Source of the DNA: Arthrobacter sp. Br18
GTDB taxonomy: Bacteria > Actinomycetota > Actinomycetes > Actinomycetales > Micrococcaceae
Length of the DNA stretch: 41,094 nt
NCBI RefSeq assembly: GCF_000520555.1
Contig: NZ_KI914852.1
Coordinates: 13,556-54,649 of the forward strand
Direction of reading: 5' to 3'
Shown here: in pieces, positions 7,103 through 38,591 of the stretch
Position numbering within the stretch: position 1 is the stretch's first letter
How the letters are laid out: each line of letters opens with the position of its first letter
Position numbers and translations under genes: made by a program
The notes under the pieces: generated by a model
Told to the model about the DNA's origin: nothing
The model's database searches: none
Seen by the model: the letters and a program-made list of their open reading frames with translations, nothing else

Positions 7103-7123
7103 CTCCCGGTTCTCCTGGCGAGC

Positions 7124-8696: not shown

Positions 8697-8702
8697 GGAC
8701 AG

Positions 8703-11136: not shown

Positions 11137-11142
11137 GCAGCG

Positions 11143-11358: not shown

Positions 11359-11528
11359 TGATCTGTGGCTTTCATAGTGGGTTTCGTGCTGGTGAATTTT
11401 CGTTCGAGAGGGTCAGGCCGGAAGGGCAGGACACCTCGGCGATGAGGAATCCATCTTACCGGGCGGATAAGGCCGCGGGGTGCTAACGTCGCGATCCTGT
11501 GACCAAAGCGATGACCGGGAGGTGCGGA

Positions 11529-21095: not shown

Positions 21096-21119
21096 CAATA
21101 GGTGCTTTGTTACAGTACT
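21096..21119 (+). promoter_or_regulatory. Candidate MocR operator, site 1
   Basis: A 24-base element (CAATAGGT, four bases, then TGTTACAGTAC) lies directly upstream of the MocR start. The same element occurs inverted at 22473-22496 before the transaminase, with 18 of 24 matches and identical half-site spacing. A further ATAGGTG lies at 21073-21079, 25 bases from the one inside this site. Confidence 0.65.
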
Positions 21120-21134
21120 AAGGTGACTGAATCG

Positions 21135-22466
21135 ATGATCGAACTTGGTTGGGCGCCGGATGAACCGACGGCCCGCGGCGTGGCACACGCAGTCAGCCGG
21201 GCCATTCGTGATGGCCTCCTGCAGCCGGGAACGAAGCTGCCCTCCATTCGCGCCGTCGCAACCCGACTGCAGTTGTCGCCGACCACCATCAGCGCCGCCT
21301 GGTCCTTGCTCGCCCGGTCCGGAGCTATTCACACGGACGGGCGGCGCGGCACGAGGATCGCTGACATGGGCCTTGGATCCACCCGCTACAGCCAAACCCT
21401 GAATCGCCAGAGCCTCTTCCCCCTGGACCTCTCCACCGGTGTACCCGACCGCGACCTCCTGCCGGATCTTGGGCAAGTGCTGAAAAATCTGACGAGCGCT
21501 GTCACCCCCGGCAGCTACCTTGATCCACCGGTGGTACCGGAGCTGATCGAGGTATTGCGGCAGGACTGGCCTTATGACGCCGAGACCTTTGCAATTGTCG
21601 ACGGCGCAATGGATGCCCTTGAATTAGCCACCCGTGCGTTGGTCAGGTTCGGAGACCGCGTTATCGTGGAACACCCGACGTTTCCCCTGCTGCTCGACCT
21701 GCTTGAAGCTGCAGGAGCAGAGATCGTAGGGGTACCCATGGATGACCAGGGCATGCTCCCCACCGACCTGGAGCAAGCTCTTGCCACCTCTGCTGCGGCC
21801 GTGATCCTTCAACCGCGAGCACAGAATCCGACGGGAATTTCCCTGACGTCTCCACGCGCCGAGCACCTGTCCAGGATCATTGGTGCTGCGGACGTCACCG
21901 TTCTCGAGGATGACTCTGCTGGCTATGTTGCCTGGACGCCGGCGATCAGCCTGGGGCAGTGGCTGCCGGAGCGGACGCTGCATGTGCGGAGTTTCTCCAA
22001 ATCGCATGGCCCGGACCTGCGGCTCGCGGCCATGAGCGGACCTGCGACCATCATCAACGAGATCATCTCCAGGCGCCAGCTTGGCCAGGGTTGGACAAGC
22101 CGACTCCTGCAACGGATCCTGCTCGGCTTGCTCACCGAGAAACCTGCCGTCGAACACATCGATCATGCCCGCCATGAGTATCGGCGCCGCCGCGAGGCAG
22201 TCGTCACCGCCCTGGCCACACACGGCGTGCAGGTCAGGGGAACGGATGGCATCAATATCTGGATCCCGGTTGCCGACGAGTCGGCCGCAATGGTGCGACT
22301 CGCGAGTCAAGGGATCGGAGTTGCCCCTGGTGCCCCATTCGCCGTACTCCCCCTGCAGCAGGGCCACATCCGGGTCACCATCGGGGCTGTTTCCGAATCG
22401 GTCTCCGAACTAGCGGAGTTGATAGCCCAGGCGGCACTCGCCGGGAGTTGGGCCGGCGGCCGGTGA
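21135..22466 (+). CDS. MocR-type regulator (GntR HTH plus aminotransferase domain)
   Basis: This is a 443-residue MocR/GabR-class regulator. Residues up to about 75 form a GntR winged helix (LQPGTKLPSIRAVATRLQLSPTTISAAW), and the rest is a fold-type I aminotransferase domain with NPTGISL and SFSKSHGPDLR, whose Lys would bind PLP. In this class the PLP and an amino compound act as effector, and the target is often a neighbouring transaminase gene, here the class III enzyme at 22595. I choose the ATG at 21135, 9 bases after AAGGTG; GTG at 21123 or 21102 is possible, but the latter falls inside the candidate operator. The divergent Nramp-like gene may be a second target. Confidence 0.9.
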   Translation: MIELGWAPDEPTARGVAHAVSRAIRDGLLQPGTKLPSIRAVATRLQLSPTTISAAWSLLARSGAIHTDGRRGTRIADMGLGSTRYSQTLNRQSLFPLDLSTGVPDRDLLPDLGQVLKNLTSAVTPGSYLDPPVVPELIEVLRQDWPYDAETFAIVDGAMDALELATRALVRFGDRVIVEHPTFPLLLDLLEAAGAEIVGVPMDDQGMLPTDLEQALATSAAAVILQPRAQNPTGISLTSPRAEHLSRIIGAADVTVLEDDSAGYVAWTPAISLGQWLPERTLHVRSFSKSHGPDLRLAAMSGPATIINEIISRRQLGQGWTSRLLQRILLGLLTEKPAVEHIDHARHEYRRRREAVVTALATHGVQVRGTDGINIWIPVADESAAMVRLASQGIGVAPGAPFAVLPLQQGHIRVTIGAVSESVSELAELIAQAALAGSWAGGR

Positions 22467-22594: not shown

Positions 22595-23968
22595 TTGCAG
22601 ACAACTACCGCGGTAACCCGAACGGACGCTGAGAACGGCGCGGAGATCCGGCGCAAGGACAGGGCACACGTTTTTCACTCCTGGTCGGCCCAGGCGCAGA
22701 TCGACCCACTACCCATTGCCGGAGCGCTCGGTTCCTACTTCTGGGACTTCGACGGAAACCGTTATCTCGATTTCTCGTCGCAGTTGGTCAACGTGAATAT
22801 CGGGCACCAGCACCCCAAACTGATTTCAGCGATCCAGGAGCAGGCAGGCAAACTCGCCACTATCGCGCCGATTTTCGCCAACGATGCCAGATCTGAAGCA
22901 GCGCGGTTGATCTCAGCGCTGGCTCCCGGCGATCTCAACAAGGTCTTCTTCACGAACGGCGGTGCGGAAGCAAATGAGAATGCTGTCCGGATGGCACGCC
23001 TTCACACCGGCAGGTCCAAGGTGCTCGCCGCATACCGCAGCTATCACGGGTCCACCGCTGGCGCAATCGCCCTCACCGGCGATCCGCGGCGGTGGCCTTC
23101 GGAGCCCACTATGACCGGCGTCGTCCGCTATTGGGGTCCCTACTCCTACCGGTCCGCTTTCCACTCAGCCGACGACGGCGAGGAGTGCGAGCGAGCGCTG
23201 ACGCACCTGAGGGACATCATCGCCGTCGAAGGACCGCACACCATAGCCGCCATCATTCTCGAGCCGGTCGTCGGCACGAATGGCATTCTCGTCCCACCGG
23301 AAAACTATCTTCCCGGGGTTCGGGCGCTCTGTGACGAATTCGGCATTGTGCTCATCGCTGACGAAGTGATGTCGGGTTTCGGCCGTTGCGGCGAGTGGTT
23401 TGCCGTCGACCACTGGGAAGTGACGCCGGATCTGATCACCTTCGCCAAGGGATCGAACTCCGGCTACGTTCCGCTGGGCGGCGTCATCATTTCGGAGCGG
23501 ATTGCGCGAACCTTCGATGAGCTCCCCTATCCGGGCGGTCTTACCTACTCGGGGCACCCTTTGGCATGCGCTTCGGCAGTAGCCTCGATCAACATCTTCC
23601 ACGAGGAAGGAATTGTCGAAAATGCCCGCGCTTTGGGACAGGACGTCATCGGGCCACAATTGAGGGCCCTGGCGGAACGCCACCCGAGTGTGGGAGAAGT
23701 TCGCGGTCTGGGCGTGTTCTGGGCGCTCGAACTTGTCGTCGACCGAAAAACCCGGCAGCCCCTGGTGCCGTTCAATGCCGCCGGAGCCGCTGCAGCACCC
23801 ATGGTCGAGTTCGCTAAGGCCTGCAAGAGCCGCGGTCTGTGGCCGTTCACGCACTTCAACCGCACGCACGTTGTTCCGCCCTGCACCACAACGGCCGGGG
23901 AAGTCCTCGAGGGAATCGATATTCTCGACGAAGCACTCACGGTCGCCGACAAGTACTACACCGGCTGA
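22595..23968 (+). CDS. Class III (omega) aminotransferase, taurine/beta-alanine type
   Basis: This 457-residue PLP enzyme is a class III transaminase. Lys285 (ITFAKG) forms the Schiff base, Asp256 (LIADEVMSGFGR) contacts the pyridine nitrogen and NGGAEANENAVRMAR (about 121-135) is typical. The start HVFHSWSAQ and FSSQLVNVNIGHQHP recall transaminases annotated for taurine, which commonly accept beta-alanine and other omega-amino acids. The acceptor would be pyruvate or 2-oxoglutarate. TTG at 22595 follows AGAGGA at good spacing. The GGT-family gene follows after 44 bases, and the MocR gene and its site lie upstream. If beta-alanine is the substrate, the product is malonate semialdehyde. Confidence 0.9.
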   Translation: MQTTTAVTRTDAENGAEIRRKDRAHVFHSWSAQAQIDPLPIAGALGSYFWDFDGNRYLDFSSQLVNVNIGHQHPKLISAIQEQAGKLATIAPIFANDARSEAARLISALAPGDLNKVFFTNGGAEANENAVRMARLHTGRSKVLAAYRSYHGSTAGAIALTGDPRRWPSEPTMTGVVRYWGPYSYRSAFHSADDGEECERALTHLRDIIAVEGPHTIAAIILEPVVGTNGILVPPENYLPGVRALCDEFGIVLIADEVMSGFGRCGEWFAVDHWEVTPDLITFAKGSNSGYVPLGGVIISERIARTFDELPYPGGLTYSGHPLACASAVASINIFHEEGIVENARALGQDVIGPQLRALAERHPSVGEVRGLGVFWALELVVDRKTRQPLVPFNAAGAAAAPMVEFAKACKSRGLWPFTHFNRTHVVPPCTTTAGEVLEGIDILDEALTVADKYYTG

Positions 23969-24012: not shown

Positions 24013-25821
24013 ATGAGCTTTACTACCCGGCCGGAACTCGCCGGCACCTTCGGCATGGTTTCATCGACCCACTGGATTCCGTCCCAGGTCGGAATGGGAA
24101 TTCTGGAGCGCGGTGGGAACGCTTTCGACGCCGCCGTCGCAGCTGGTTTCACCCTGCAGGTCGTTGAACCGCACCAGAACGGCCCGGGCGGGGATCTTCC
24201 GCTGATCTTTGCGCGCGCTGATGACAAAAAGTCGATGGTGTTGTGCGCCCAGGGTCCAGCTCCCTCCGCCGCAACGCAGGAGGCCTTCGCCGATCTGGGC
24301 CTGGACATGATTCCCGGCACCGGCCTGCTGGCCGCGGCCATTCCCGGAGCCACCCTGGGATGGCTGACTTTCCTGCGGGACCACGGAACGGTCAGTCTGG
24401 GCGACGCCTTGAGCATGGCCGAGAGCTACGCGGAGAATGGTTTTCCCGCTGCCCCGAAGGTCGTCGAATACATTCGCCGTGTGGAATTGCTGTTTCGTGA
24501 GCACTGGAAGTCGTCGGCGGACGTCTACCTGCCGTGCGGCAAGGTGCCCGAGCCGGGCCAGGTGCTCTTCAATAGGGCATTGGCCAGGACCTATCGTCGG
24601 CTGATGGATGCCGAGAAGCAGGTCCTCGCCGACGGCGGAACACGCACGGCAGGCATCGACGCCGCCATCCAAGCGTGGACGGAAGGATTCGTGGCGGAAG
24701 CGATCGAGGACTTCGTTGGCATCCCGTGTCGGGACTCATCGGGCCAGGACCACGCCGGGCTGCTGAGCCGCGACGATCTCGGGTCCTGGCGCCCGCACTA
24801 CGAGGAGCCGCAAAGCCTGACGTTCAAGGGGCACACCGTCTGCAAGGCGGGTTTCTGGAGCCAGGGGCCGGTGTTCCTGCAGCAGCTGGCCCTGCTCGAT
24901 GGGCTCGACGTCGAACCTGGCACCGCGGACGGCATCCACAAGATCCTCGAGGCTACAAAATTGGCGTTCGCCGACCGGGACGCCTGGTACGGCGATGTCA
25001 GCGACGTGCCAGGCTCCACTCTCCTGTCCGCCGACTACGCCGCACAACGTCGGCAGCTCATCGAAGACACCGCCTCGCTCGAGATCCGGCCGGGCAGCCC
25101 GGACGGCCGGACTCCCGTCCTCCCGAATCTAGAGGTGAAGCCAGGTTTCGATGCAGCTGGGCTCACCGGAGTCGGTGAGCCGAACGCCGTCGCCGCACTG
25201 CTGGACTCCGGTCCGGAGCCCACCGGCGAGGCACGCACCGACACCGTCCATGTCGACGTCGTGGACCGCTGGGGCAACATGGTCTCCGCGATGCCCAGCG
25301 GCGGCTGGCTGCACTCGTCGCCGATCATCCCTGAACTCGGTTTCCCCCTGGGCACCCGCCTGCAGATGGCGTGGCTGGAGGATGAGCTGCCCAACACCCT
25401 CGCGCCGGGCAAACGCCCCCGGACCACGCTCTCCCCCACCCTCGTCATGAGAGGGAACGAACCGGTGCTAGCATTCGGGTCACCTGGTGGAGACCAGCAG
25501 GACCAATGGCAGCTTCACTTCTTCCTCAACTTGATTCTGGGCGGCATGAATCTGCAGGAGGCTATCGATGCGCCGGCGTTCAACAGCACCCATTATCCGA
25601 GCTCTTTCTACCCCCACGAGCATCAGCTCGGGGTGGTCCTCATCGAGCAGCGGGTGGGGGACGACGTCCTGGCCGGGCTGAGAGCCCGCGGCCACCGGGT
25701 AGGGGTCGCCGGGGACTGGGAGATCGGACGACTGTGCGCGGTCTCCCGCGAACCCGACACCGGCATGCTCCACGCGGGCGCAAATCCTCGCGGCATGCAG
25801 GGGTATGCGGTCGGGAGGTGA
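24013..25821 (+). CDS. Gamma-glutamyltransferase-family Ntn hydrolase
   Basis: This 602-residue protein is in the GGT family of self-cleaving Ntn hydrolases. The predicted cleavage and nucleophile residue is Thr411 in DTVHVDVVDRWGN, matching TTHYSVVD of classical enzymes, and GSPGG (about 510) fits the oxyanion loop. Upstream NGPGGDLPLIF matches the glycine loop of the large subunit. No signal peptide is visible, unlike secreted GGT, so it should act in the cytoplasm. The ATG at 24013 has AAGGAAGG upstream. Next to a transaminase, it probably releases an amine or amino acid from an amide. Members outside classical GGT hydrolyse diverse acyl amides, so the substrate need not be glutathione. 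Confidence 0.85.
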   Translation: MSFTTRPELAGTFGMVSSTHWIPSQVGMGILERGGNAFDAAVAAGFTLQVVEPHQNGPGGDLPLIFARADDKKSMVLCAQGPAPSAATQEAFADLGLDMIPGTGLLAAAIPGATLGWLTFLRDHGTVSLGDALSMAESYAENGFPAAPKVVEYIRRVELLFREHWKSSADVYLPCGKVPEPGQVLFNRALARTYRRLMDAEKQVLADGGTRTAGIDAAIQAWTEGFVAEAIEDFVGIPCRDSSGQDHAGLLSRDDLGSWRPHYEEPQSLTFKGHTVCKAGFWSQGPVFLQQLALLDGLDVEPGTADGIHKILEATKLAFADRDAWYGDVSDVPGSTLLSADYAAQRRQLIEDTASLEIRPGSPDGRTPVLPNLEVKPGFDAAGLTGVGEPNAVAALLDSGPEPTGEARTDTVHVDVVDRWGNMVSAMPSGGWLHSSPIIPELGFPLGTRLQMAWLEDELPNTLAPGKRPRTTLSPTLVMRGNEPVLAFGSPGGDQQDQWQLHFFLNLILGGMNLQEAIDAPAFNSTHYPSSFYPHEHQLGVVLIEQRVGDDVLAGLRARGHRVGVAGDWEIGRLCAVSREPDTGMLHAGANPRGMQGYAVGR

Positions 25822-25930: not shown

Positions 25931-27103
25931 TTACGGACCGCCCTCTGAAACGGCGGTCCGCCGGCTTGTTCCGCGCGGCGTCGAAGATGCCATCTCCGCG
26001 AGATCCTCGATGACGGACTGACCCGGAATACGGGCGAAGGATCCGCCTTTCCTGACTGCCGCGGCGATGGCATGGCCCACCTCGGCAGTGCTCATGCCCA
26101 TTGCAGCACCGGACAGGGCAGGCAGCGATGCCAGTAGATCCACGGTTGCCGCTTCGATGGCAAGGGCCGCATCCCGTTCGCCCAGGTGCGCCAGGCACAT
26201 CGCGGTGGACAATACCGTGCCGGTCGGGTTCGCCCATCCTTTGCCCGCTATGTCCGGAGCAGACCCGTGGATGGCTTCGAACATGCTGGGAGCTGTCCCG
26301 TCGATATTGAGGTTGGCGCTGGCAGCGACGCCGAGACCACCTTGGATCACGGCGCCCAGATCCGTGATGATGTCACCGAACAGATTGTCCGTGACCACCA
26401 CGTCGAAGCGCTCGGGCGTCAGTGGCAGATGGAAGCACATCGCGTCGACGTGGACGTAGTCGACGTCGACGGCCGGATAACGGGATGCAAGATCATGCAC
26501 CGTGTCCTGCCAGAGGGTTCCGGCTTCGATGAGGATGTTCTTCTTGTGGACAAGTGTCAGCCTTCCCCGCCTCCGCTCTGCCAACCGAAAGGAATAGTCG
26601 ACGACCCGTTCCACGCCGGCACGGGTATTGATCGATTCCTGCACGGCTACGGCATGGGGCGTGCCGGCGTGGACAGTGGAGCCACGGCCCACGTAAGCAC
26701 CCTCCGTGTTTTCGCGGAGGATCACCAGATCACAGCGTTCTGATGTCAGCCCTACTATCGGCGTTGCCACGCCGGGGTAGAGTTTCACCGGCCGGAGGTT
26801 GACTGCCTGCCGAAAGGCCTGACGCATCGCCAGGATGAAACCCCGCTCCAGAACTCCCGGCTCCACTGCTGGGTCACCCATCGCACCGAAGAGTATCGCG
26901 TCGTGGGTGCGCAGGTTCTCCTCAAGCTCCGCCGTCCACAGCTCGCCTGTGCGGAGGTAGTGCTGGGCGCCAGCTGGGGTGCGCTGCAGATCGGCAGAGA
27001 ATCCATAGGTGGATCCCGCAGCGGCGAGCACTTCCAGTGCTGCCTCGACCACCTCGGGACCGATACCATCCCCAGCGATGACGGCTATGCGATGTGTGTT
27101 CAT
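25931..27103 (-). CDS. LeuB-like beta-decarboxylating dehydrogenase
   Basis: This is a 390-residue enzyme of the isopropylmalate/isocitrate/tartrate dehydrogenase family, which oxidises a malate-type 2-hydroxy acid with NAD and removes the beta-carboxylate. Conserved parts are GDGIGPEV (11-18), NLRPVKLYPG (102-111), Tyr137, Lys187/188 in HKKN, Asp220, Asp244 and Asp248, and the NAD loop HGSAPDIAGKG (279-289). Actinobacterial LeuB, from memory, reads REGTEGPY and VDAATIFL; here these are RENTEGAY (130-137) and VDAMCFHL (219-226), so the side-chain pocket is changed. ATG at 27103 overlaps the GntR stop (ATGA) and has GGGGAG upstream. A catabolic role on a substituted malate, for example 3,3-dimethylmalate, is inferred; D-malate or tartrate is an alternative. 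Confidence 0.88.
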   Translation of the reverse strand: MNTHRIAVIAGDGIGPEVVEAALEVLAAAGSTYGFSADLQRTPAGAQHYLRTGELWTAELEENLRTHDAILFGAMGDPAVEPGVLERGFILAMRQAFRQAVNLRPVKLYPGVATPIVGLTSERCDLVILRENTEGAYVGRGSTVHAGTPHAVAVQESINTRAGVERVVDYSFRLAERRRGRLTLVHKKNILIEAGTLWQDTVHDLASRYPAVDVDYVHVDAMCFHLPLTPERFDVVVTDNLFGDIITDLGAVIQGGLGVAASANLNIDGTAPSMFEAIHGSAPDIAGKGWANPTGTVLSTAMCLAHLGERDAALAIEAATVDLLASLPALSGAAMGMSTAEVGHAIAAAVRKGGSFARIPGQSVIEDLAEMASSTPRGTSRRTAVSEGGP

Positions 27104-27762
27104 GCTGCAACTCCCCTGCTTCTCGATAATCTCAACAGATCGCTCTGTAGGTGGCGGAGTGACGCTTGTTCTGCTCGCCCCGGGTCTGAATCGCGGATCG
27201 CGTCCACGATGGCGGCGTGCTCGCGCAGAGCCGCACGAGCGGCGTCCGTCGTCATCAGGCCGGCGCCACCCAGAAGCTGCTCTCCCAGGCGAACCACGCT
27301 CAGTTGGCGTCGAATTCTGCTGTTGCCCGACGCATCCAGCAACAGGGTATGGAAATGTAGCCCCAACCGGTGGAAGCGCTCGGATTGTCCGCTCTCCTGC
27401 GCCCGATGCTGATCCGCAACTACCTGATGAAGGTCTGACAGAATTCCTGGGGTTACCCGCGAACAGGCGAGCCGCACTGACATTCCTTCCAGCGCTTCAC
27501 GCAGTTCGAAGATCTCCCTCATCTCTCCGATGCCGGGAGAGAATACCGTCGCGACTCCCCCTGCACTGGCGATGACCAGACCCTCCTGCTCCAGAATGCG
27601 GAGTCCCTCCCTCAAGGGTGTCCTGCTGATACCGAGTTCAGAGGAAAGCAGGGCCTGAGGAAGCCGCACGCCGGGCGGATAGTATCCGGTGAAAATCCTT
27701 TCGCGGATAAGCTCGGCGGTCTGGTCCACGAGGGATACACTGCTGCGCCATTCCGTCGGCAT
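27100..27762 (-). CDS. GntR-family regulator with FCD domain
   Basis: This 220-residue repressor has an N-terminal winged helix (RLPQALLSSELGISRTPLREGLRILEQEG, split here by no gap) and an all-helical FCD ligand domain from about residue 80, with the metal or carboxylate site helices (FELREALEG; FHRLGLHFHTLLLDASGN). FCD domains usually sense small carboxylic acids. It is cotranscribed with, and overlaps, the LeuB-like gene, and is divergent from the aldehyde dehydrogenase operon. ATG at 27762 follows GGAAGGA at 5-base spacing; a TTG one codon earlier is also possible. Confidence 0.9.
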   Translation of the reverse strand: MPTEWRSSVSLVDQTAELIRERIFTGYYPPGVRLPQALLSSELGISRTPLREGLRILEQEGLVIASAGGVATVFSPGIGEMREIFELREALEGMSVRLACSRVTPGILSDLHQVVADQHRAQESGQSERFHRLGLHFHTLLLDASGNSRIRRQLSVVRLGEQLLGGAGLMTTDAARAALREHAAIVDAIRDSDPGRAEQASLRHLQSDLLRLSRSRGVAA

Positions 27763-27879
27763 CAATTCCTTCCCTCACGTTTGACTCCGACCACGGGATC
27801 CCTTCACCTCGACCCAATGATGACTGTTCTCCGAGCCCTCGAAAAAGTCAATGTCATGGCAGGAGTAGGGATCACACCA

Positions 27880-27909
27880 TTGACCGCGTACTACGAGCGA
27901 AGCTAGTGT
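27880..27909 (+). promoter_or_regulatory. Possible promoter of the aldehyde dehydrogenase operon
   Basis: TTGACC (27880-27885) and TAGTGT (27904-27909) are spaced 18 bases. A transcript would then start near 27916, placing the palindrome at 27918-27932 right at the start point, as expected for a repressor site. The match at -10 is weak. Confidence 0.4.
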
Positions 27910-27917
27910 GAAGCGTT

Positions 27918-27932
27918 ACTGGTCTGACCATA
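27918..27932. promoter_or_regulatory. FadR/FCD-GntR type operator
   Basis: ACTGGTCTGACCATA matches the palindrome ACTGGTC-N-GACCAGT at 13 of 15 positions; the inner 11 bases (TGGTCTGACCA) are a perfect dyad. It ends at the likely ATG of the aldehyde dehydrogenase. A closely related site lies at 37737-37751. Confidence 0.65.
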
Positions 27933-29413
27933 TGAATCCGTTGATTGCAGGAGTATCCACCGACGTGACCCCCTACCGAAATCGCTACCCGGACGGCCTA
28001 CCCGTTGGCAACCTCTGGGTTGATTGCACCGAGATGGCGCCTGTGGTGTTCCCCTTCGATGGCTCGGTCATCGCACAGTCTCCTGTAGGCCACGTGGATC
28101 ATGCCCTGACGGCCCTGAGCGCTTCAGAGGATATCAAGGGGGAAGTCGCAGCCCTTTCCGCCGGCAGGAAACGAGCGGTGCTCTTGGCCGTACGTGATGC
28201 CCTCGCAGAGCGGCAGGCCGCATTCGAGGAACTGCTGGTGCTGGAAACCGGTAAACCGTTGGTCGACTGCCGCACCGAAGTAGCGAGAACGCTCACCACC
28301 TGGGCTGCCGCTGCGGAGGCGGTAGCGCACACCCATGGTGAAACCGTGCCACTGGACCTCCAGCCTGCGGGCGAGGGGATGATCGGCTACTGGACCCGCA
28401 GGCCGGCCGGAATAGTCATCGCGATCGCGGGATTCAACTACCCACTCCTTCTGGCCAGCCATAAGATCGCTCCCGCCATTGCCGCCGGTTGCCCTGTCAT
28501 TGTGAAGCCCGCACCGAATACCCCGTTGGCAACGCTGTGGGCGGTTCACCTGATCCGCACTGTTCTCGCTGCACACGGCATCTCCGAGTCCGCCGTTCAG
28601 TTGGTGACCGGAGGAGTGGATGTCGGTGAGGCCCTCGTGGCCGATCCTCGTGCCACGGTCGTTTCCTTCACCGGCTCGGCAGCAGTTGGCCACCGTATCG
28701 CCAAAGCTGCCGCACCACGCAAGGTGGTTCTCGAGTTGGGGTCGAACACAGGCTTGATAGTCGCAGCCGATGCGGTCGTGTCGGAAGCTGTCGACGCCGT
28801 TGTCCGCGGCGGCTTCTATGCCAATGGCCAGGCCTGCATCTCGGTGCAGCGGGTGATCCTGGTCGAGTCTATTGCGGATGAGTTTCAGCATGGGCTCCTG
28901 GAGCGCCTAAACGAAGTTGTTTCGGGGGATCCGCGGGAAGAGTCCACCCGGTTGGCTCCTGTCATCAACACCGGATCCGCGCAAAGGATCACGGGATGGA
29001 TCGACGATGCGGTTCACCGAGGTGCGCGGGTGCTGGCCGGCGGCTCGGCTCGGGGTGCTGCCATGGACCCAACGGTCTTGACGGACGTCCCGCAGGACGC
29101 CGATCTCTGGTGCGAAGAGATCTTCGGCCCGGTGGTCTGCCTGCACCGGGTGCGGGACGTCGGTGCGGCAATCCAGCTGGTGAACCGTTCAAGGTACGGC
29201 CTGCAGGCCGCCATCTACACCAAGTCGCTCGAGTCGGCGTTCGCGGCGGTCAACGAGTTGGATGTCGGCGGCGTGGTGGTCAACGAGATTCCGGGGTTTC
29301 GATCCGACATCATGCCCTACGGCGGGGTGAAGGATTCCGGTATCGGCAGGGAGGGTCCCCGTTACGCGATCGAGGAATTCACCGTCACCCGCATGGCCAT
29401 GATTCGGCCATGA
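27932..29413 (+). CDS. NAD(P)-dependent aldehyde dehydrogenase
   Basis: This 493-residue enzyme of the ALDH superfamily oxidises an aldehyde to a carboxylate. The nucleophile is Cys302 (NGQACISVQR), the general base Glu268 (VLELGSN), Asn169 (AGFNYP) stabilises the oxyanion, and SFTGSAAVG is the coenzyme motif. It resembles the broad glyceraldehyde/lactaldehyde-type branch more than CoA-acylating enzymes. I take the ATG at 27932, since the GTG at 27908 overlaps the predicted -10 and the operator would fall inside the gene. It starts an operon with the SDR and a FadR-type regulator. In the pantoate hypothesis it would make 3,3-dimethylmalate from 4-dehydropantoate. Confidence 0.9.
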   Translation: MNPLIAGVSTDVTPYRNRYPDGLPVGNLWVDCTEMAPVVFPFDGSVIAQSPVGHVDHALTALSASEDIKGEVAALSAGRKRAVLLAVRDALAERQAAFEELLVLETGKPLVDCRTEVARTLTTWAAAAEAVAHTHGETVPLDLQPAGEGMIGYWTRRPAGIVIAIAGFNYPLLLASHKIAPAIAAGCPVIVKPAPNTPLATLWAVHLIRTVLAAHGISESAVQLVTGGVDVGEALVADPRATVVSFTGSAAVGHRIAKAAAPRKVVLELGSNTGLIVAADAVVSEAVDAVVRGGFYANGQACISVQRVILVESIADEFQHGLLERLNEVVSGDPREESTRLAPVINTGSAQRITGWIDDAVHRGARVLAGGSARGAAMDPTVLTDVPQDADLWCEEIFGPVVCLHRVRDVGAAIQLVNRSRYGLQAAIYTKSLESAFAAVNELDVGGVVVNEIPGFRSDIMPYGGVKDSGIGREGPRYAIEEFTVTRMAMIRP

Positions 29414-29439
29414 CAAACGCAACCGAAAGAAGGCCAGAC

Positions 29440-30213
29440 ATGGACTATTCAAAGCTCTTTCACTTCTCCGGCAAGCGGGTTCTCGTGATCGGCGCCGGCA
29501 GCGGCATCGGACGCGAATCAGCCCGCGCGTTGGCAGCGCATGGCGCGACTGTCATCTGCGCCGACAGCGACGAAGCGAAGGCCGAAGCGACGGCGGCACT
29601 GATCGGCGGCACCGCGGCCGCGAAGGTTCTCGACGTATTGGACCATGCAGCGATCCGCGCAGCCGCAGATGAGTTCAGTGACATCTCCGCACTTGTCTTC
29701 ACCGCTGCCACGAATGTGCGCAAGCGCATAGTCGACTACACCATGGAGGAGTTCGACCGGGTCATGAACCTGAATCTCCGGTCTTCCTTTGCCCTGATTC
29801 AGGCGTTCGCCCCAAAAATGGCAGATAGAGGCGGCGGCAGCATCATCGGGTTCTCCTCCATCCGGGCAGTCACCGTCGAACCCGGGCAAGGAGTCTATGC
29901 GGCGACCAAGGCAGGCCTGGTGCAGCTTGCACGCACCGCTGCAGCCGAATTCGGCCCGAAGAACGTGCGTGTCAATATGATCGCCCCCGGAATCGTGGAA
30001 ACGCCACTCACGGCCCAGATTCGGAACAATCAGGACTGGTACAACGCCTATGCCCAGAAGAGCGCGCTCGGCCGCTGGTCCACGCCGGAGGAATTGGCTG
30101 GTGCCGTTGTCTACCTTGCCTCGGACGCCTCTACCTTCGTCACGGGCTCAGTACTGATGGTCGACGGAGGCTGGACTGCTGTGGATGGCCGTTTCGATCC
30201 GCCGAACTCCTGA
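29440..30213 (+). CDS. Short-chain dehydrogenase, candidate alcohol-oxidising step
   Basis: This 257-residue classical SDR has GAGSGIG (18-24) for NAD(P), Ser139/140, Tyr153 and Lys157 as catalytic residues, and NLNLRSS at the structural Asn. A C-terminal MVDGGWTAVDG is standard. It is placed between the aldehyde dehydrogenase (27 bases upstream) and a FadR-type regulator whose start lies inside its end, so it is in the same operon. Oxidising a primary alcohol to the aldehyde that the preceding gene uses is the simplest role. ATG at 29440 has AGAAGG 6-7 bases upstream; an ATG at 29410 overlapping the aldehyde dehydrogenase stop is an alternative start. Confidence 0.88.
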   Translation: MDYSKLFHFSGKRVLVIGAGSGIGRESARALAAHGATVICADSDEAKAEATAALIGGTAAAKVLDVLDHAAIRAAADEFSDISALVFTAATNVRKRIVDYTMEEFDRVMNLNLRSSFALIQAFAPKMADRGGGSIIGFSSIRAVTVEPGQGVYAATKAGLVQLARTAAAEFGPKNVRVNMIAPGIVETPLTAQIRNNQDWYNAYAQKSALGRWSTPEELAGAVVYLASDASTFVTGSVLMVDGGWTAVDGRFDPPNS

Positions 30214-30988
30214 ACCGGTGGAGGGAAAACGGGAGCAAACGCGCCGCGCCTTCGAAAGCGTGGTTGACCACGTGGAGCAGTCGGTCCTGGAGGGCAAGCT
30301 CAAAGCCGGGGACCGACTTCCGAGCGAACGTGAGCTGGTCAACCGTTTCGCGGTCAGCAGGTCTTCGGTACGTGAGGCGATGCGCGTCCTGGAAAGCAAC
30401 GGGGTGCTATCCACACGGCCCGGCGATCCCCGCGGTGCGGTCATACTCGCTCCGACCCCCGACCCTTTGCGCAGGCTGATGACCAGGTTGGCTGTTTCCT
30501 CGAGGAGCAGCCTTGCAGACCTGCTGATATACCGCATGACCCTGGAGTCGGCTGCCAGCTCGCTCGCTGCCACCAGGAGGTCCGCCGGGGACCTCCTGGA
30601 GTTGGAGAAGGCCATGGCACGGATGACGCAGTGCCTGGAACTGGGATTCGAGGAGTTCAGCCGGGCGGACCTGGACTTCCACGATGTGGTGGCGCGAATC
30701 AGCGGGAACCCCATGATCCAGATCTCGGGCGAGGCGGTACGGGAATCCATCGAGGGACTCATCAGGGGCTACCTGCGCGAGCATGGCGCGGACAGGGGCC
30801 TGATGCGCCGTACTCTTCACCACCACAGAGAAGCTTTCGAAGCCATCCGAAACCGGGACGCCCATCTGGCGGAACATCTAGCCCGCAGCAGCATCTTCGA
30901 GTATTACGGGCACCTCTTGGGTGATGCGGACCGGCGAGCAATCGCGGCCCTGGCATCCTTCGGAACGCCCGTTGGTTCAGTCCAGTGA
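30185..30988 (+). CDS. FadR-type GntR regulator (FCD domain)
   Basis: This 267-residue protein has a winged helix (DRLPSERELVNRFAVSRSSV, continuing REAMRVLESNG) and a C-terminal FCD domain with SRADLDFHDVVARISGN and the later HHREAFEAI, including likely metal-binding His residues. It overlaps the SDR gene by 29 bases in another frame and its end overlaps that of the convergent amidase gene by 12 bases. It is clearly paralogous to the regulator at 37830 (same domain order; similar LPSEREL and ADLDFH segments). FadR-type members bind TGGT-N3-ACCA operators, as found at 27918 and 37737. Confidence 0.9.
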   Translation: MAVSIRRTPEPVEGKREQTRRAFESVVDHVEQSVLEGKLKAGDRLPSERELVNRFAVSRSSVREAMRVLESNGVLSTRPGDPRGAVILAPTPDPLRRLMTRLAVSSRSSLADLLIYRMTLESAASSLAATRRSAGDLLELEKAMARMTQCLELGFEEFSRADLDFHDVVARISGNPMIQISGEAVRESIEGLIRGYLREHGADRGLMRRTLHHHREAFEAIRNRDAHLAEHLARSSIFEYYGHLLGDADRRAIAALASFGTPVGSVQ

Positions 30989-32386
30989 CGTCCAATCCGG
31001 GACCGCCGACTGGGGGCGGACGGTTTCGTACCACGCCGCGGCCCGTAGCACCAGGGCGTCAGCACCCACTCTCCCTGCCAGCTGCACACCGATCGGCTTT
31101 CCCTCGACGTTGAACCCGCAGTTCACCGTTGCGGCGGGTTGTCCCGACATGTTGTACGGCACGGTGAAACCGATGTGCCCCATGGTCTGATCTGGATCAT
31201 TGACCGGCATCGGTTCCTCCGCCCGGAAGGCAACCATCGGCGCCACGGGAGAGAGAACGACGTCGTAGGCCGCAGTAGCGGCGATAGTTGCCCGCTGGAT
31301 TTCGTCGATGCAGTGGAGATTGCGGATTGTCTCCGCCCCGCTGAAAGCTGCTGCACGGCTGCACCATCGCACAATGTAGGGCAGCACTTTTTCCTGGTGA
31401 TCGACCGGCAGTGCCTGGTAGTCGGCCCAGGAGCGGGTTCGCCAGAAGTTGTCGAGTCCGTCCAGCAGATCCTGGTTGATGAACGGGCCTATCCTCGTGA
31501 CCTGGGCACCAGCCTCCTGAAAAAGCATCGCAACTGCCTCTACGGCCGCTAGGACCTCCGGGTCGACCTGGGCTCCGGTTCCGGCCTCGGTCTGCAGGGC
31601 CACGCGGAGTGATCCTGCATCACAGCTGAGGTTGCTCCAGTCCTGCGCCGGATAGGGACGCGTGCTGTAGTCGCGGATGTCAGGTTGGCTGAGTATGCTC
31701 ATGAACAACGCCGAGTCCGCAATGCTTCTGGTCAGGGGCCCCGCAGCGCGCCCCCTGTAGGGCGCATCCAGCGGCACCAGCCCGGCGCTCGGCTTGAGGC
31801 TTGCAAGTCCCTGCCACCCGGCCGGCAGACGGATGGAACCTCCGATGTCGGTACCGACATGTAGTGGCCCGTAGCCTGCCGCGGCGGCCGAGCCGGCTCC
31901 CGCACTGGAACCGCCGGTAGTCCAATCCGGGTTCCATGCACTGCGGGACACCCCATGGAGGCTTGAGACGCCGGAAGACAGCATTCCCCAGTCCGGCATG
32001 GTGGTCGAACCCAGAATTACTGCCCCGCTCTCCAGGATGCGGTTGGTGATCGGGGCATTTGCGGCGGCGATCCTCGGATGGGGTAACGCGGTGCCGGAGG
32101 GCATCGGTACGCCGGCCCGTGCGATGTTCTCCTTGACCGTCACCGGCACGCCGTCCAGGATGCTGCGCTGGGTACCGTCCCGCCAGCGCCGCCAGCTTGC
32201 CACGGCATCAGCCCGAGCAGCCTTCGGGTCGAAGAGATAGAGGGCGTTCAGCACCGGCTCCCGCCCTTCGATACGTGCGATCACAGCCTCGACCACGTCC
32301 ACCGGCGATAGCCCTCCGGAAGCGTACGCAACGCCGAGTTCATGTGCGCTGAGCCCGTGAAGTTCCTTCGATGGCGTGACTGACAT
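30977..32386 (-). CDS. Amidase-signature hydrolase
   Basis: This 469-residue member of the amidase-signature family has the Ser-cisSer-Lys triad as Lys85 (PVTVKENI), Ser160 (TTGGSSAG) and Ser184 (GTDIGGSIR), with the normal 24-residue spacing between the serines. It hydrolyses a carboxamide, cytoplasmically since no signal peptide is seen. It is the last gene of the ABC-importer operon, so the imported solute is probably its substrate. ATG at 32386 has AAAGG about 10 bases upstream. A pantothenate-type amide is proposed; a simple N-acyl amino acid or aliphatic amide remains possible. Confidence 0.9.
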   Translation of the reverse strand: MSVTPSKELHGLSAHELGVAYASGGLSPVDVVEAVIARIEGREPVLNALYLFDPKAARADAVASWRRWRDGTQRSILDGVPVTVKENIARAGVPMPSGTALPHPRIAAANAPITNRILESGAVILGSTTMPDWGMLSSGVSSLHGVSRSAWNPDWTTGGSSAGAGSAAAAGYGPLHVGTDIGGSIRLPAGWQGLASLKPSAGLVPLDAPYRGRAAGPLTRSIADSALFMSILSQPDIRDYSTRPYPAQDWSNLSCDAGSLRVALQTEAGTGAQVDPEVLAAVEAVAMLFQEAGAQVTRIGPFINQDLLDGLDNFWRTRSWADYQALPVDHQEKVLPYIVRWCSRAAAFSGAETIRNLHCIDEIQRATIAATAAYDVVLSPVAPMVAFRAEEPMPVNDPDQTMGHIGFTVPYNMSGQPAATVNCGFNVEGKPIGVQLAGRVGADALVLRAAAWYETVRPQSAVPDWTSLD

Positions 32387-32414: not shown

Positions 32415-34223
32415 TCAGTGGGCGGCGGCGGCAGCGCGTGCCGCCAGCTCGGATCGCAGGGACATGGAGGAACTGACCAGCGTGCGGGTGTACTCGTGCT
32501 GGGGGTTCTCGTAGATCTGGGCGGTGCTACCCGCTTCCACAATCTCGCCCTGGTTCATCACCACGACGTTGTCACAGATCCTGCGCACCACACCCAGGTC
32601 ATGGGAAACGAAAATCAGAGTGAGCTGATATTTGTCCACCAGGTCCGCCAGCAGGTTCAACACCTGCGCCCGGACGGACACATCAAGCGCGCTCACCGGC
32701 TCATCCGCGACCAGCACCCGCGGCTCGCAGACCAGCGCACGGGCGATGGAGATGCGCTGCCGCTGACCTCCGGAGAACTGGTGCGGGAAGCGGTCCGCAG
32801 CATCCGCGGGAAGTCCGACTGCGGCCAGCATCTCCGCTACGAGCTTCCGCTGCCGTGTGCTGTTCACCTTCTGCCCGGGGGCACGCAGCGGTTCGGCGAT
32901 GATGTCCTGCACCCTCATCCGCGGGTTCAGCGATCCCATCGGATCCTGAAAGACGATCTGCAGTTGCTGCCTGAGCTGCGTAAGGTCGCGTTCCTTGGCA
33001 CCGGCCACCTCATTGCCCACTACACGAACACTTCCAGCCGTCGGCTGGTCCAGCCCGGCGAGGATGCGCAGGAGGGTGGATTTCCCGGATCCGGACTCGC
33101 CCACGACGCCGAATCGTTGCCCCGGCATCACGTCAAAGGAAATGCCCCGCAGCGCCCGTACCTCAGTCGGCGTGCCGAACAAGGACGTCCGGCCGCGCTG
33201 ATAGGTGCGCGTGAGGCCCTTGACGCTGATCACGGGTTCGACGCCGGGGATCGGCCTGGCCACCGAAACTGCCTCGACCGGCACGGCAGGGGCACAATCC
33301 ATCAGCTGCGATCCCGCGCCCTGCCGCCCGGCATGGTCCCCATCCAAAATGGGTGGCACGTAAGCGGAGGCGGAAGCCACAGTGAACAGGCGTCCGTTGC
33401 TGTCGCTGGCGTCGAGGTCGGAGGCAGCCAGCAATCCTCGGGTGTAGGGGTGCTGCGGACGGGAGAAGACATCCTCCGTAGTCCCTTCCTCCACAACCAC
33501 GCCATCGTTCATGACCAGGACCCGGTCGCAGACGTTCGCCACAACGGCGAGGTCGTGGGTGATGAAAAAAAGGCCGGTGCCACGCTGCTGCACTGCTTCC
33601 AGCACCAGATCCAGAACCTGGCGCTGGACTGTCACATCCAGGGCAGTCGTCGGTTCATCACACAACAGCAGGGCGGGGTCGTTGGCCAAAGCCATCGCCA
33701 ACATGACCCGCTGCCGCTGTCCACCGGACAGCTGGTGCGGGTAGGCGCGTGCCGCCTCCGCAGGGTCAGGGAGCCGGACGCTGGCCAGCATCTCGACGGC
33801 TCTCGCCCTGGACGCGGACCTCCCGGCGACCGTTTTGTGCTTGAGCATGATCTCCGCCACCTGCGGTCCCACCTTCATGAGCGGATTCAGCGCGGTCAGC
33901 GGCTCCTGGAAAACCATGGTCATGTCATTGCCGCGGATCTTGCGCATTTGTCTATCGGTCGACGTCACCAGATCGGCCTCCCGGCCGGCCAACCGTATGG
34001 AGCCGGTGGCGGAAACACCTTCGGGAAGAAGTCCCATCAGAGCCGTGGCGGTCATCGATTTTCCGGAACCGGATTCACCGATCAGACCCACACGTTCACT
34101 GCGGTTCATGGCGAGGTTGAAGCGCTCTACGAGCGGCCGGTGCGGGGTCGCGACGGTGAGGTCATCGACCTGCAGAAGCGGCCCGCTGACCGGACTCTCA
34201 AACGCGCGCTCGGGGACACCCAT
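32415..34223 (-). CDS. Peptide-type ABC transporter ATPase, two fused domains
   Basis: This 602-residue protein has two complete ABC ATPase domains fused head to tail, equivalent to DppD plus DppF. Walker A GESGSGKS appears twice (near 50 and 375), with signature motifs LSGGQRQR and FSGGQRQR and Walker B LLCDEP and LVADEP. The oligopeptide-transporter-specific C-terminal segment HPYTRGLL follows the first domain and HEYTRTLV the second. The linker of about 60 residues is Pro/Ala-rich. It energises the importer whose permeases lie just upstream, and is followed by the amidase. Confidence 0.94.
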   Translation of the reverse strand: MGVPERAFESPVSGPLLQVDDLTVATPHRPLVERFNLAMNRSERVGLIGESGSGKSMTATALMGLLPEGVSATGSIRLAGREADLVTSTDRQMRKIRGNDMTMVFQEPLTALNPLMKVGPQVAEIMLKHKTVAGRSASRARAVEMLASVRLPDPAEAARAYPHQLSGGQRQRVMLAMALANDPALLLCDEPTTALDVTVQRQVLDLVLEAVQQRGTGLFFITHDLAVVANVCDRVLVMNDGVVVEEGTTEDVFSRPQHPYTRGLLAASDLDASDSNGRLFTVASASAYVPPILDGDHAGRQGAGSQLMDCAPAVPVEAVSVARPIPGVEPVISVKGLTRTYQRGRTSLFGTPTEVRALRGISFDVMPGQRFGVVGESGSGKSTLLRILAGLDQPTAGSVRVVGNEVAGAKERDLTQLRQQLQIVFQDPMGSLNPRMRVQDIIAEPLRAPGQKVNSTRQRKLVAEMLAAVGLPADAADRFPHQFSGGQRQRISIARALVCEPRVLVADEPVSALDVSVRAQVLNLLADLVDKYQLTLIFVSHDLGVVRRICDNVVVMNQGEIVEAGSTAQIYENPQHEYTRTLVSSSMSLRSELAARAAAAAH

Positions 34224-34225
34224 GA

Positions 34226-35146
34226 TCAGCGCTCTCCGTTCAGCTTCGGATCGAAGCGGTCGCGCAATCCGTCACCCAGCAGGTTGAAACCCAGCACGGC
34301 AATGGCGATGGCAACACCTGGCCAGACAGCGAGCATGGGATATGTGTCCAGGAACTGTTGGGACTCCTGCAGCATCCGGCCCCAGGACGGCGTCGGTGGG
34401 GGTGTCCCAAGCCCCAGGAAGGACAGCGCTGCCTCTGCCAGCACGGCGATCGCGAAGGACACCGAGCACTGGACCACGACGATTCCTGCGATGTTGGGCA
34501 GGACGTGGCGGACCGCGATCCGGAAGGCATTCTGGCTCGCGGCTCTCGCCGCCAGCACATACTCCGTGCTCATGACCTGGAGAGTTCCGCTGCGGGCAAC
34601 CCGGGCGAATCCTGGAATGGTACCGATTCCAATGGCAACCATCGCAGTTGTGGTGCTGGCACCGAAGACAGCGCCGAACATGATGGCAACCAGCAGCGCA
34701 GGGAAGGCCAGCAGGATGTCTGCAGCACGCATGCTGACTTCCTCAGTGAACCCGCCGCGCATTCCGGCGAGGATCCCCAGCGGCGTGCCGATCAGCAACG
34801 CGATGCCCACGGCGATCAACCCCACCAGCAGGGTGATGCGCGCACCGTACAGGATGCCCGAGAAGACATCGCGTCCGTACCGGTCGGTGCCCATCAGGTG
34901 CCCCGGGCTGGAGTTCTGCAGCCGATCTGCTGGAAATGCCTGCACCGGATCATACGGCGTCCAGAAGAAGGACACGAGCGCTGACAGCACGACGACGGCA
35001 ACCAGCGCGCCGCCAATCATCAGTGTGACCGAGGGCTTTCCCCGACGTCGTCCAGCGGTCGCCGGTGTGACCTCCAGGGGTGGAGCCTCCGGAACCAGCC
35101 CCGACGCGGGTTGGGTCACGCGCTCAGGTTGACTGTGGTCGGTCAT
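34226..35146 (-). CDS. ABC transporter permease, DppC type
   Basis: This 306-residue permease has a proline/arginine-rich cytoplasmic start, one anchor helix and five further helices. HLMGTDRYGRDVFSGILYG is the DppC/OppC hallmark, and an EAA-type loop (YVLAARAASQNAFRI) docks the ATPase. ATG at 35146 is one base past the end of the upstream permease gene, and its stop is 2 bases from the ATPase start, so the operon is tight. Confidence 0.94.
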   Translation of the reverse strand: MTDHSQPERVTQPASGLVPEAPPLEVTPATAGRRRGKPSVTLMIGGALVAVVVLSALVSFFWTPYDPVQAFPADRLQNSSPGHLMGTDRYGRDVFSGILYGARITLLVGLIAVGIALLIGTPLGILAGMRGGFTEEVSMRAADILLAFPALLVAIMFGAVFGASTTTAMVAIGIGTIPGFARVARSGTLQVMSTEYVLAARAASQNAFRIAVRHVLPNIAGIVVVQCSVSFAIAVLAEAALSFLGLGTPPPTPSWGRMLQESQQFLDTYPMLAVWPGVAIAIAVLGFNLLGDGLRDRFDPKLNGER

Positions 35147-35147
35147 G

Positions 35148-36095
35148 CTAGGCCTTCTTCCTGATACGCGGATCCAGCACGGTATAGAGGACATCCACCA
35201 CGAGATTGATGATCAGGGTGATGGAGACGAGCACCATCACCACGGACTGGACAGTGAGCAGGTCACGATTCCCCACCGCGTCCAGCAGCATCGATCCGAG
35301 CCCTGGGATCACGAAAACCCGCTCAATCACGACGGCACCGATAATCAGTGCCGCGAGCTGGACGCTGGTGACGGTCAACACCGGAATCGCGGCATTTCGC
35401 AGCCCGTGGCGCGCCAGGGCTTCCATTCTGCCCAACCCCTTGGCCCGGGCTGTTCGCAGGTAGTCCTCGCTCATCACCTCGAGGACAGCCGAGCGGACAT
35501 AGCGGGTCAGAATAGCTCCCTGGACAGAAGCGAGGGCCACCACCGGCAGGATCACCCGTCGGATGAAATCGCCGGGGTCCTCGCCGGGTGGCGTCCAGCC
35601 GTTCGCGGGCAACCAGCCGAGTCCCACCGCGAACACCACCACCAACAGGATTCCCGCCAGGAAGTTGGGAAGAGCCACCCCCACCTGGCTCAGTCCGCTG
35701 ATGAGGATGCCGCTGGGGTTCCGGTGCCGGACGGCGGCGAACGTGCCGAACGGGATCGCGATCAGCAGTGCCACGATCATGGCGAGCACCACCAGGATCA
35801 GGCTTACCTGGACCCGATCGGCCACGAGCGGGCTGATGTCCTGGCGCGTGACGTACGAGGTGCCGAAGTCACCGATTGGGAGGCCGGCCACCCAATCGAA
35901 GTACTGCACGATGAGCGGCCGGTCGGTGCCGAACTCCCTGCGGGTCGCTTCGAGCAGCTCCGGTGTGGCGTTGACGCCCAACGCGACCTGCGCCGGATCG
36001 CCGGGAATCGCTCGCATCACGAGGAATACGAGCACGGTGGCCACAACATAGGTGACGATGAACCTGATGACGTTGACCAGCAACCGGATTGCCAC
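35148..36095 (-). CDS. ABC transporter permease, DppB type
   Basis: This 315-residue permease has six membrane helices. The N-terminal VFLVMRAIPGDPA and the loop YLRTARAKGLGRMEAL are typical of DppB/OppB. GTG at 36095 has an AGGCAGG site about 8-10 bases upstream. It forms a heterodimer with the DppC-type protein in the next gene and receives substrate from the lipoprotein in the previous gene (40 bases away). Confidence 0.94.
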   Translation of the reverse strand: MAIRLLVNVIRFIVTYVVATVLVFLVMRAIPGDPAQVALGVNATPELLEATRREFGTDRPLIVQYFDWVAGLPIGDFGTSYVTRQDISPLVADRVQVSLILVVLAMIVALLIAIPFGTFAAVRHRNPSGILISGLSQVGVALPNFLAGILLVVVFAVGLGWLPANGWTPPGEDPGDFIRRVILPVVALASVQGAILTRYVRSAVLEVMSEDYLRTARAKGLGRMEALARHGLRNAAIPVLTVTSVQLAALIIGAVVIERVFVIPGLGSMLLDAVGNRDLLTVQSVVMVLVSITLIINLVVDVLYTVLDPRIRKKA

Positions 36096-36135
36096 GTATG
36101 AACCTGCCTCTAGGTGTGCCTGCTGATTCTCGTGG

Positions 36136-37653: not shown

Positions 37654-37736
37654 AGGGTCTCCATCAGTTGGCAACGGCGCACTCCGTCGGTGTGATCCAT
37701 CTAACAACATAAACCTATCCGATTTCTACCGGGTGA

Positions 37737-37829: not shown

Positions 37830-38591
37830 ATGAACAAAGTGAGCTTCAGCCGCGCTGTTCCCGTTCTGACCTACGAGCGCGTTGTCGAACAGATAGAGCA
37901 GGCAATTGTGTCCGGAGAAATCACACCCGGCCAACACCTGCCGAGCGAGCGCGAACTGATGGTGCAATTCTCCGTCAGCCGCCCTACGGTCCGCGAGGCG
38001 CTGCGCGTACTCCAAAGCCTTGGACTCATCGCTTCCAAACCGGGGAGCCGCAGCGGTCCCGAGGTGTTGTCGATGTCCTCGGAACCTTTGGGCCGGTCCT
38101 TCGCCACCATGGCCAGGATCGCGTCGCTCTCCCTGACGGAGCTCGTGCAGTTCCGCATAGTCCTCGAAAGCTCGGCCTGCCAGCTTGCAGCGGCGCTTCG
38201 AAATGGGGAGCAGCTCGAAAAGATGCAGAACGCCGTTGAACGGATGGAGGCTGAGGTCACTAACGGCTCCGATAGCTTCAATCGCGCGGACCTCGATTTC
38301 CACGCCTCCATCTGGGAAGCCAGCCATAACGATCTGCTGAAGGTCTGCGGGCAAGCGGTCTCAGGTTCCATCCTGAACCTGATGAACGAGCGGATGGAAC
38401 GTTCCGCGGACACCGCCGGTGCCATGCGGGAATCCCTGGAGCGGGACCGTGCCATCTACAGCGCTATCGCATCCGGTGACAGTGTTGCCGCCGGAGACGC
38501 GGCCCGGAGCGCCATCTCCCGATACTTCGCAGAATACCTCGACGAGGACGGCGTCAGGGGGCTGCGGGCGCTCGCTCCTGAACTGGCATAG
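37830..38591 (+). CDS. FadR-type GntR regulator (FCD domain)
   Basis: This 253-residue regulator has a winged helix (HLPSERELMVQFSVSRPTV, continuing REALRVLQSLG) and an FCD domain containing FNRADLDFHASIWEASHND. ATG at 37830 has AGAGGTG 5 bases upstream. It is divergent from the ABC-importer operon and its likely target is the dyad at 37737. It is paralogous to the regulator at 30185, so cross-control of the two operons is plausible. Ligand unknown; FCD proteins usually sense organic acids. Confidence 0.92.
   Translation: MNKVSFSRAVPVLTYERVVEQIEQAIVSGEITPGQHLPSERELMVQFSVSRPTVREALRVLQSLGLIASKPGSRSGPEVLSMSSEPLGRSFATMARIASLSLTELVQFRIVLESSACQLAAALRNGEQLEKMQNAVERMEAEVTNGSDSFNRADLDFHASIWEASHNDLLKVCGQAVSGSILNLMNERMERSADTAGAMRESLERDRAIYSAIASGDSVAAGDAARSAISRYFAEYLDEDGVRGLRALAPELA

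Follow-up and report, generated by a model that had tools for sequence, protein, structure and literature searches.

A gene set from Arthrobacter sp. Br18 probably serves the import and catabolism of pantothenate (vitamin B5), a reading to which we give a probability of about three in four on the strength of sequence comparisons. The genes lie in a stretch of 41,094 nt (assembly GCF_000520555.1, contig NZ_KI914852.1, positions 13,556-54,649), hereafter the window, in which a first-pass annotation had singled out positions 25931-32386 as a candidate set for breakdown of pantothenate or pantoate. They encode a LeuB-like beta-decarboxylating dehydrogenase (LeuBx), a short-chain dehydrogenase/reductase (SDR), an aldehyde dehydrogenase (ALDH), an amidase, GntR/FCD regulators and a dipeptide-type ATP-binding cassette (ABC) importer. 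Pantothenate is cleaved to beta-alanine and pantoate (EC 3.5.1.22), and pantoate is converted to 4-dehydropantoate (EC 1.1.1.106), 3,3-dimethylmalate (EC 1.2.1.33) and 2-oxoisovalerate (EC 1.1.1.84). Primary-alcohol oxidation, aldehyde oxidation and malate-type oxidative decarboxylation in one module are the demands of this route, and the C2 configuration of D-pantoate matches that of the 2R-malates used by LeuB-family enzymes. Searches with Pfam and NCBIfam models placed a gene of fitting class for all four reactions in the window, in line with the earlier suggestion that each step has a fitting enzyme.

We infer every reaction, as well as transport and induction, from gene families, gene order, conserved neighbourhoods and linkage to pantothenate genes elsewhere, all of which were observed. 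In the proposed scheme the importer would take up pantothenate or a pantothenate-containing compound, and the amidase would cleave pantothenate to beta-alanine and pantoate. Beta-alanine would be consumed by a transaminase to the left of the set together with a methylmalonate-semialdehyde-type dehydrogenase (MMSDH) encoded elsewhere in the genome. The SDR would oxidize the alcohol of pantoate, presumably at C4 and not C2, the ALDH would form 3,3-dimethylmalate, and LeuBx would oxidize and decarboxylate this acid to 2-oxoisovalerate, which would pass into valine-type catabolism.

What would be new are genes for the pathway; the pathway itself is known. That bacteria break down pantothenate has been on record since 1966, as cited in passages of PMC10393543 and PMC9426600. 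The first-pass annotation knew of no settled gene assignment for all of these EC numbers. EC 1.1.1.84 and 1.2.1.33 stand among the validated orphan activities in Table 5 of a 2007 survey (PMC1940265), and the protein behind pantothenase was stated to be unknown in 2023 (PMC10393543). Among the matches listed in our literature search, none assigned genes to the pathway earlier; subscription journals lay mostly outside that search, and an earlier publication is possible.

Conservation of the gene set

We compared 73 named loci carrying relatives of LeuBx, of which 47 are close (at least 62%; L005-L049, L076 and L077) and the other 26, mostly from Bacillales, lie at 38-44%. Partners were counted within the fetched flank of each locus. 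Near the 47 close genes we found the SDR in 42 loci, the ALDH in 43, the amidase in 34, the binding protein in 28 and a permease in 31, with all five parts present in 28; among the 39 close loci of at least 18 kb, the counts were 35 for the SDR, 36 for the ALDH and 31 for the amidase. The co-occurrence check that the first-pass annotation had proposed was thus passed. LeuBx, SDR and ALDH stood together in 41/47 (exceptions L008, L043, L044, L046, L047 and L077), and their togetherness is therefore more than chance. Arthrobacter mangrovi and Glutamicibacter ardleyensis are among the relatives in which the cluster occurs.

Matches to the SDR and ALDH (at least 28%) also lie beside DmlA-like genes in 20/26 of the more distant loci, a linkage that weighs less because both families are so large. 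These loci (L050-L075) have no amidase match; some carry FCD regulators and TRAP-/symporter-like genes (the latter judged by eye in L051 and L067), and their substrate is perhaps free pantoate or some other hydroxy acid.

Neighbouring genes and the nature of the substrate

Support independent of the enzyme classes comes from several lineages, in which SDR or amidase relatives have panC/panB, PanT-like, ThnT-like and beta-alanine-type genes as neighbours; this favours the original proposal of pantothenate or pantoate catabolism. On a plasmid of Arthrobacter dokdonellae, LeuBx (64%), ALDH, SDR and a FadR regulator are followed by panC, and a DUF2520 protein is encoded on the opposite flank; farther out are an acyltransferase, an acyl-CoA dehydrogenase and methylcitrate-cycle genes, and this region has no annotated amidase. 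Dipeptide ABC genes, an amidase (49%), an FCD regulator, panC and panB occur together on the Ti plasmid of Agrobacterium leguminum. Rhizobium is known to carry panCB on plasmids, according to the portion available of PMC3082293, and this single panC-panB neighbour could therefore be chance.

A search tagged on the SDR (E 1e-65) gave matches in 22/396 genomes of the phylum and 36/396 of the order. Apart from the window genome, 55 genomes matched, and contexts were taken for 40 of them; 13 of the 15 left out belong to one genus, f6/g14. A distant actinobacterial family, f58, contributed 15 of its 17 SDR-matching genomes, some on short contigs, with SDR relatives at 54-71%. Near the SDR in these 15 loci were an M20 peptidase (13, one of them at 31%), a PanT-like S component of an energy-coupling factor (ECF) transporter (13), EcfT (10), 2-oxoacid dehydrogenase genes (6; E1-alpha in L152 judged by eye), panC (3) and panB (1). 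At values of up to 0.01 the S component has a single PDB sequence match, chain S of 4rfs (3e-7), identified in the accessible part of PMC11521937 as ECF-PanT of Levilactobacillus brevis.

Two f58 loci have M20-SDR-panC runs that appear as a separate pantothenate system. In L156 the order is M20, SDR, PanT-like S component, two ABC ATPases (ECF ATPases by context only), EcfT and panC (5480-11634; PF01546, PF12822, PF02361 and PF02569 confirmed), and in L153 it is M20, SDR, panB and panC (2638-6577; PF02548 confirmed).

An S58 hydrolase was present in five SDR loci (L150, L173, L174, L175 and L085); the L150 protein, the only one compared, has ThnT as its best solved relative (6e-103, the next family at 3e-41). 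Within the window we found no panC/panB, PanT-like or ThnT-like neighbour; its genome holds one panC. Together, the neighbours suggest that the substrate is an imported amide, one half of which is beta-alanine and the other an acid linked to panB, panC and an importer of pantothenate type. This pattern suits pantothenate (pantoyl-beta-alanine), and the ThnT-like relatives suit pantetheine.

The window transaminase scores above the PRK06062 cut-off, as does a transaminase on a Thermus thermophilus plasmid (49% identity between the two) that lies in the order PucR-MMSDH-transaminase-SDR-M20-importer. A transaminase and an MMSDH also stand beside the set in L021 (MMSDH 680 against a cut-off of 448) and adjoin the amidase in genome G030 (70% and 73%). 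L173 and L175 have relatives of the window transaminase (62-67%) close to the SDR, and the window genome has an MMSDH-type gene (61%). By family the transaminase fits a beta-alanine role, though in the window it runs with a gamma-glutamyltranspeptidase (GGT) gene, for which tblastn gave no match in the compared loci other than L001, the window's own stretch. Among solved proteins a taurine:2-oxoglutarate aminotransferase is closest to the transaminase, so that, judged by family alone, taurine may also be a substrate.

LeuBx is an extra LeuB-family copy

The window genome (3.54 Mb, 120 contigs) has four LeuB-family matches: LeuBx, relatives at 50% (L002, contig C88) and 43% (L003, contig C26), and a partial match at 41%. 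L002 precedes an ilvE-like gene and L003, which is tartrate-dehydrogenase-like, follows Tct-like genes (neighbours judged by eye). Since the genome thus has its own LeuB beside an ilvE-like gene, LeuBx is an extra copy and not the sole leuB with branched-chain genes. LeuBx scores above the cut-off of the LeuB model NF002898 (448 against 393) and below those of the LeuB model TIGR00169 (235 against 353) and the tartrate/D-malate dehydrogenase (TTC) model TIGR02089 (342 against 470); its best solved relative is 1w0d, an actinobacterial 3-isopropylmalate dehydrogenase LeuB. LeuBx is rare, occurring in 2/394 genomes of the class, its own included (E 1e-118), and the L048 copy appears broken into two pieces. 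Five plasmid matches named tartrate dehydrogenase (six regions viewed) were set aside as TTC kin, as they occur in other settings with no annotated amidase.

In a midpoint-rooted tree of 45 rows, the window LeuBx falls in its own clade (support 100/99). The nearest neighbour of this clade is canonical actinobacterial LeuB (100/100), by a join that is not firm (92/78). Comparison of 12 LeuBx rows with 12 canonical rows (canonical row L231 was dropped by the motif filter) revealed fixed differences that include positions 90, 93, 99, 132, 155, 156, 250 and 292; at 99, 132, 155, 156, 250, 263 and 292, LeuBx and the tartrate-dehydrogenase-like protein of its genome have the same residue. It has Arg, Tyr, Lys and Asp, spotted by eye at the presumed active-site positions, which we take to be the family's active-site residues.

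We searched for canonical LeuB in 16 genomes with a LeuBx-clade gene (14 of the 47 close loci plus G971 and G195). A separate canonical LeuB (65-83%) was present in 12, in all of which LeuBx adjoins the ALDH; the SDR adjoins it as well in every one except L008.

Variant clusters in other genomes

A plasmid of Ensifer canadensis carries, in one direction, genes for a GntR regulator, ALDH, SDR, binding protein, two permeases, two ATPases, amidase (49%) and a LeuB-type protein, and tblastn found the same order on plasmids of Ensifer adhaerens and Sinorhizobium chiapasense. The LeuB-type protein, SDR and ALDH of E. canadensis are only 29-32% like those of the window, and the LeuB-type protein passes TIGR00169 (444 against 353), so this set seems to have drawn on other members of these enzyme classes; its LeuB-type gene may be a true LeuB. 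In L171 (genome G1107), a third LeuB/DmlA-type gene (45%, below all listed cut-offs, on a long branch) lies between importer and amidase. We lean slightly towards a wider picture in which a modular pathway in several phyla scavenges and consumes pantothenate and pantetheine, and with them remnants of coenzyme A, by means of interchangeable hydrolases (amidase, M20 peptidase or ThnT-like S58 hydrolase) and a decarboxylating dehydrogenase recruited separately from more than one LeuB/DmlA branch; these would be the first genes for four old EC numbers.

Alternative readings

Several observations weigh against a role in pantothenate catabolism. The transaminase adjoins LeuBx in 2/47 loci only. Thirteen of the 40 SDR loci, all from genus f6/g14 (L176-L188, SDR 50-56%), are partnerless but for a weak ABC ATPase match in two, another (L155) reaches a contig edge with no clear partner, and the 15 f58 loci include none with a LeuB-like gene, none with the amidase and one with an ALDH-type gene. 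Amidase-importer-ALDH-SDR clusters in G030, G931 and G860 lack LeuBx, these genomes having only a LeuB at 51-53% plus, in G030, a 36% match (E 1e-20). Members of the amidase family are found in purine-catabolic and other contexts too, and in L088, L092, L094, L095 and L096 the family has no SDR or LeuB-type match nearby; alone it is not diagnostic. LeuBx itself passes NF002898, the NCBI model for 3-isopropylmalate dehydrogenase. Four of the 16 genomes searched (L043, L044, L046 and G971) have no canonical LeuB, and their clade gene has no adjacent SDR or ALDH match; in G971 it lies beside leuCD/leuA-like genes (L224 9850-15056; leuA, leuC and leuD judged by eye). Because the clade gene is the only LeuB in these four genomes, and once stands beside leucine genes, some members may serve leucine synthesis or keep isopropylmalate activity. 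That LeuBx is such a biosynthetic LeuB, or a tartrate/D-malate dehydrogenase, placed here by chance is nevertheless very improbable: its own genome has another LeuB and a tartrate-dehydrogenase-like gene, it fails the TTC cut-off, and a separate canonical LeuB exists in 12/12 tested genomes where LeuBx adjoins the ALDH.

The main rival keeps pantothenate or pantetheine as the substrate and has the SDR act at C2, as a ketopantoate reductase or pantoate 2-dehydrogenase, with PanB working backwards or another route leading to 2-oxoisovalerate and the ALDH and LeuBx in other roles. In the f58 operons the later steps are missing, and the presence of panC could mean salvage or synthesis instead of breakdown. 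Genome G562 (L153) has its M20-SDR-panB-panC run with no ALDH or LeuB-like gene, a further point against C4 oxidation, and has no gene of ketopantoate-reductase type by PF08546 or by PF10728, the latter presumably a marker of that enzyme; since PF10728 is absent as well, action at C2 gains and the C4 reading loses some weight. G453 likewise lacks both, and PF10728 occurs in 0/6 f58 genomes searched. A PF08546 gene is nonetheless present in 4/6 of them, and oxidation at C4, but not at C2, explains why ALDH and LeuBx accompany the SDR in 41/47 window relatives, so that we consider this rival unlikely. Degradation of a different 2,4-dihydroxy acid, such as 2,4-dihydroxybutyrate, or of the amide of such an acid would follow an identical enzyme logic and would suit the Bacillales loci, which have a DmlA-like gene, SDR, ALDH and, in some, TRAP-/symporter-like genes, with no amidase match; it leaves the panB, panC, PanT-like and ThnT-like neighbours and the beta-alanine-type genes unexplained, and we regard it as improbable.

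Relation to known systems

Pantothenate degradation in Pseudomonas fluorescens (EC 3.5.1.22, 1.1.1.106, 1.2.1.33 and 1.1.1.84) is matched by one fitting window gene per reaction; that pathway is known from enzymes, purified from P. fluorescens, without genes, whereas the window set, from another phylum, is known from genes alone. LeuBx shares its family with actinobacterial LeuB (1w0d), its best solved relative and nearest clade, but differs in forming a separate clade, in being an extra copy, in fixed residues such as those at 132 (N, against G in LeuB) and 90 (I, against L), and in its catabolic neighbours. At seven positions it agrees with the TTC-like protein of its genome and not with canonical LeuB, yet it lies under the TTC cut-off, and that genome has a separate TTC-like gene. 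ThnT, a hydrolase of thienamycin biosynthesis, is the closest relative of the S58 hydrolase in related clusters, whereas the window has no ThnT-like gene that we could find.

With concrete candidate genes, all of the pantothenate pathway becomes testable at once. If the reading is true, genes would be assigned to enzyme steps so far documented by old biochemistry alone, and names such as '3-isopropylmalate dehydrogenase' could be corrected in many genomes. It also bears on the recycling of vitamin B5 and coenzyme A remains in microbial communities.

Layout of the locus

Families were assigned by Pfam profile search (Table 1), which confirmed the amidase, SDR, ALDH, LeuB-like dehydrogenase and FCD regulators at or near the places given in the first-pass annotation, along with the transaminase it had put 2 kb to the left. 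The genes inside its limits stood; the limits themselves were too tight and missed the importer and a third FCD regulator. As in dipeptide-type ABC importers, the run at 32415-37710(-) brings together a family-5 binding protein, two permeases and an ATPase, and the amidase is the last of the five genes on this minus-strand run. Left of LeuBx, a plus-strand run comprises the MocR regulator, the class III transaminase and GGT, the last of which the first-pass annotation had not mentioned.

Table 1. Genes of the set and its surroundings, in window coordinates
Feature	Coordinates	Strand	Evidence
MocR-type regulator ahead of aminotransferase	21102..22466	+	GntR + Aminotran_1_2
Class III aminotransferase, proposed beta-alanine transaminase	22595..23968	+	PF00202
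GGT, 44 bases 3' of aminotransferase	24013..25821	+	PF01019
LeuBx, LeuB-like beta-decarboxylating dehydrogenase, proposed (R)-3,3-dimethylmalate dehydrogenase EC 1.1.1.84	25931..27103	-	Iso_dh PF00180 2.3e-84; NF002898 above cut-off
GntR/FCD regulator, 4-base overlap with LeuBx start	27100..27765	-	PF07729, PF00392
ALDH, proposed 4-dehydropantoate dehydrogenase EC 1.2.1.33	27908..29413	+	Aldedh PF00171 8.1e-128
SDR, proposed pantoate 4-dehydrogenase EC 1.1.1.106	29440..30213 (alternative start 29410)	+	PF13561
GntR/FCD regulator	30185..30988	+	PF07729, PF00392
Amidase-signature amidase, proposed pantothenase EC 3.5.1.22, last gene of importer run	30977..32386	-	PF01425 1.1e-76; NF005450 635 bits against cut-off 458
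ABC importer ATPase, two ATPase domains	32415..34223	-	PF00005 in two stretches, oligo_HPY
ABC importer permease	34226..35194	-	PF00528
ABC importer permease	35148..36095	-	PF00528, PF19300
Family-5 (dipeptide-type) substrate-binding protein	36136..37710	-	PF00496
GntR/FCD regulator, divergent from importer run	37830..38591	+	PF00392, PF07729

The amidase passes the PF01425 cut-off and has Ser/Ser/Lys, spotted by eye, which we take to be the motif of the amidase-signature family. For the ALDH, no NCBIfam model was over its cut-off among the 25 of 42 matched models listed. The 405-aa open reading frame of the SDR, starting at 28996, begins too early, and the true start is 29440 or 29410. Comparison of the two divergent promoter regions for a shared operator gave no common 10-mer at up to one mismatch and one imperfect palindrome, found only 5' of the binding-protein gene; a promoter scan gave 0 matches, against 2.8 in shuffled sequences.

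Elsewhere in the window, a spore photoproduct lyase family protein (15325-16392(-), PF20903 3.5e-33) is encoded in what is apparently a Micrococcales genome; we know of no endospore formation in bacteria of this type. An Nramp-like transporter gene (19629-20927(-), PF01566) is also present, and an Nramp-type gene adjoins the amidase on an Aureimonas plasmid, probably by coincidence.

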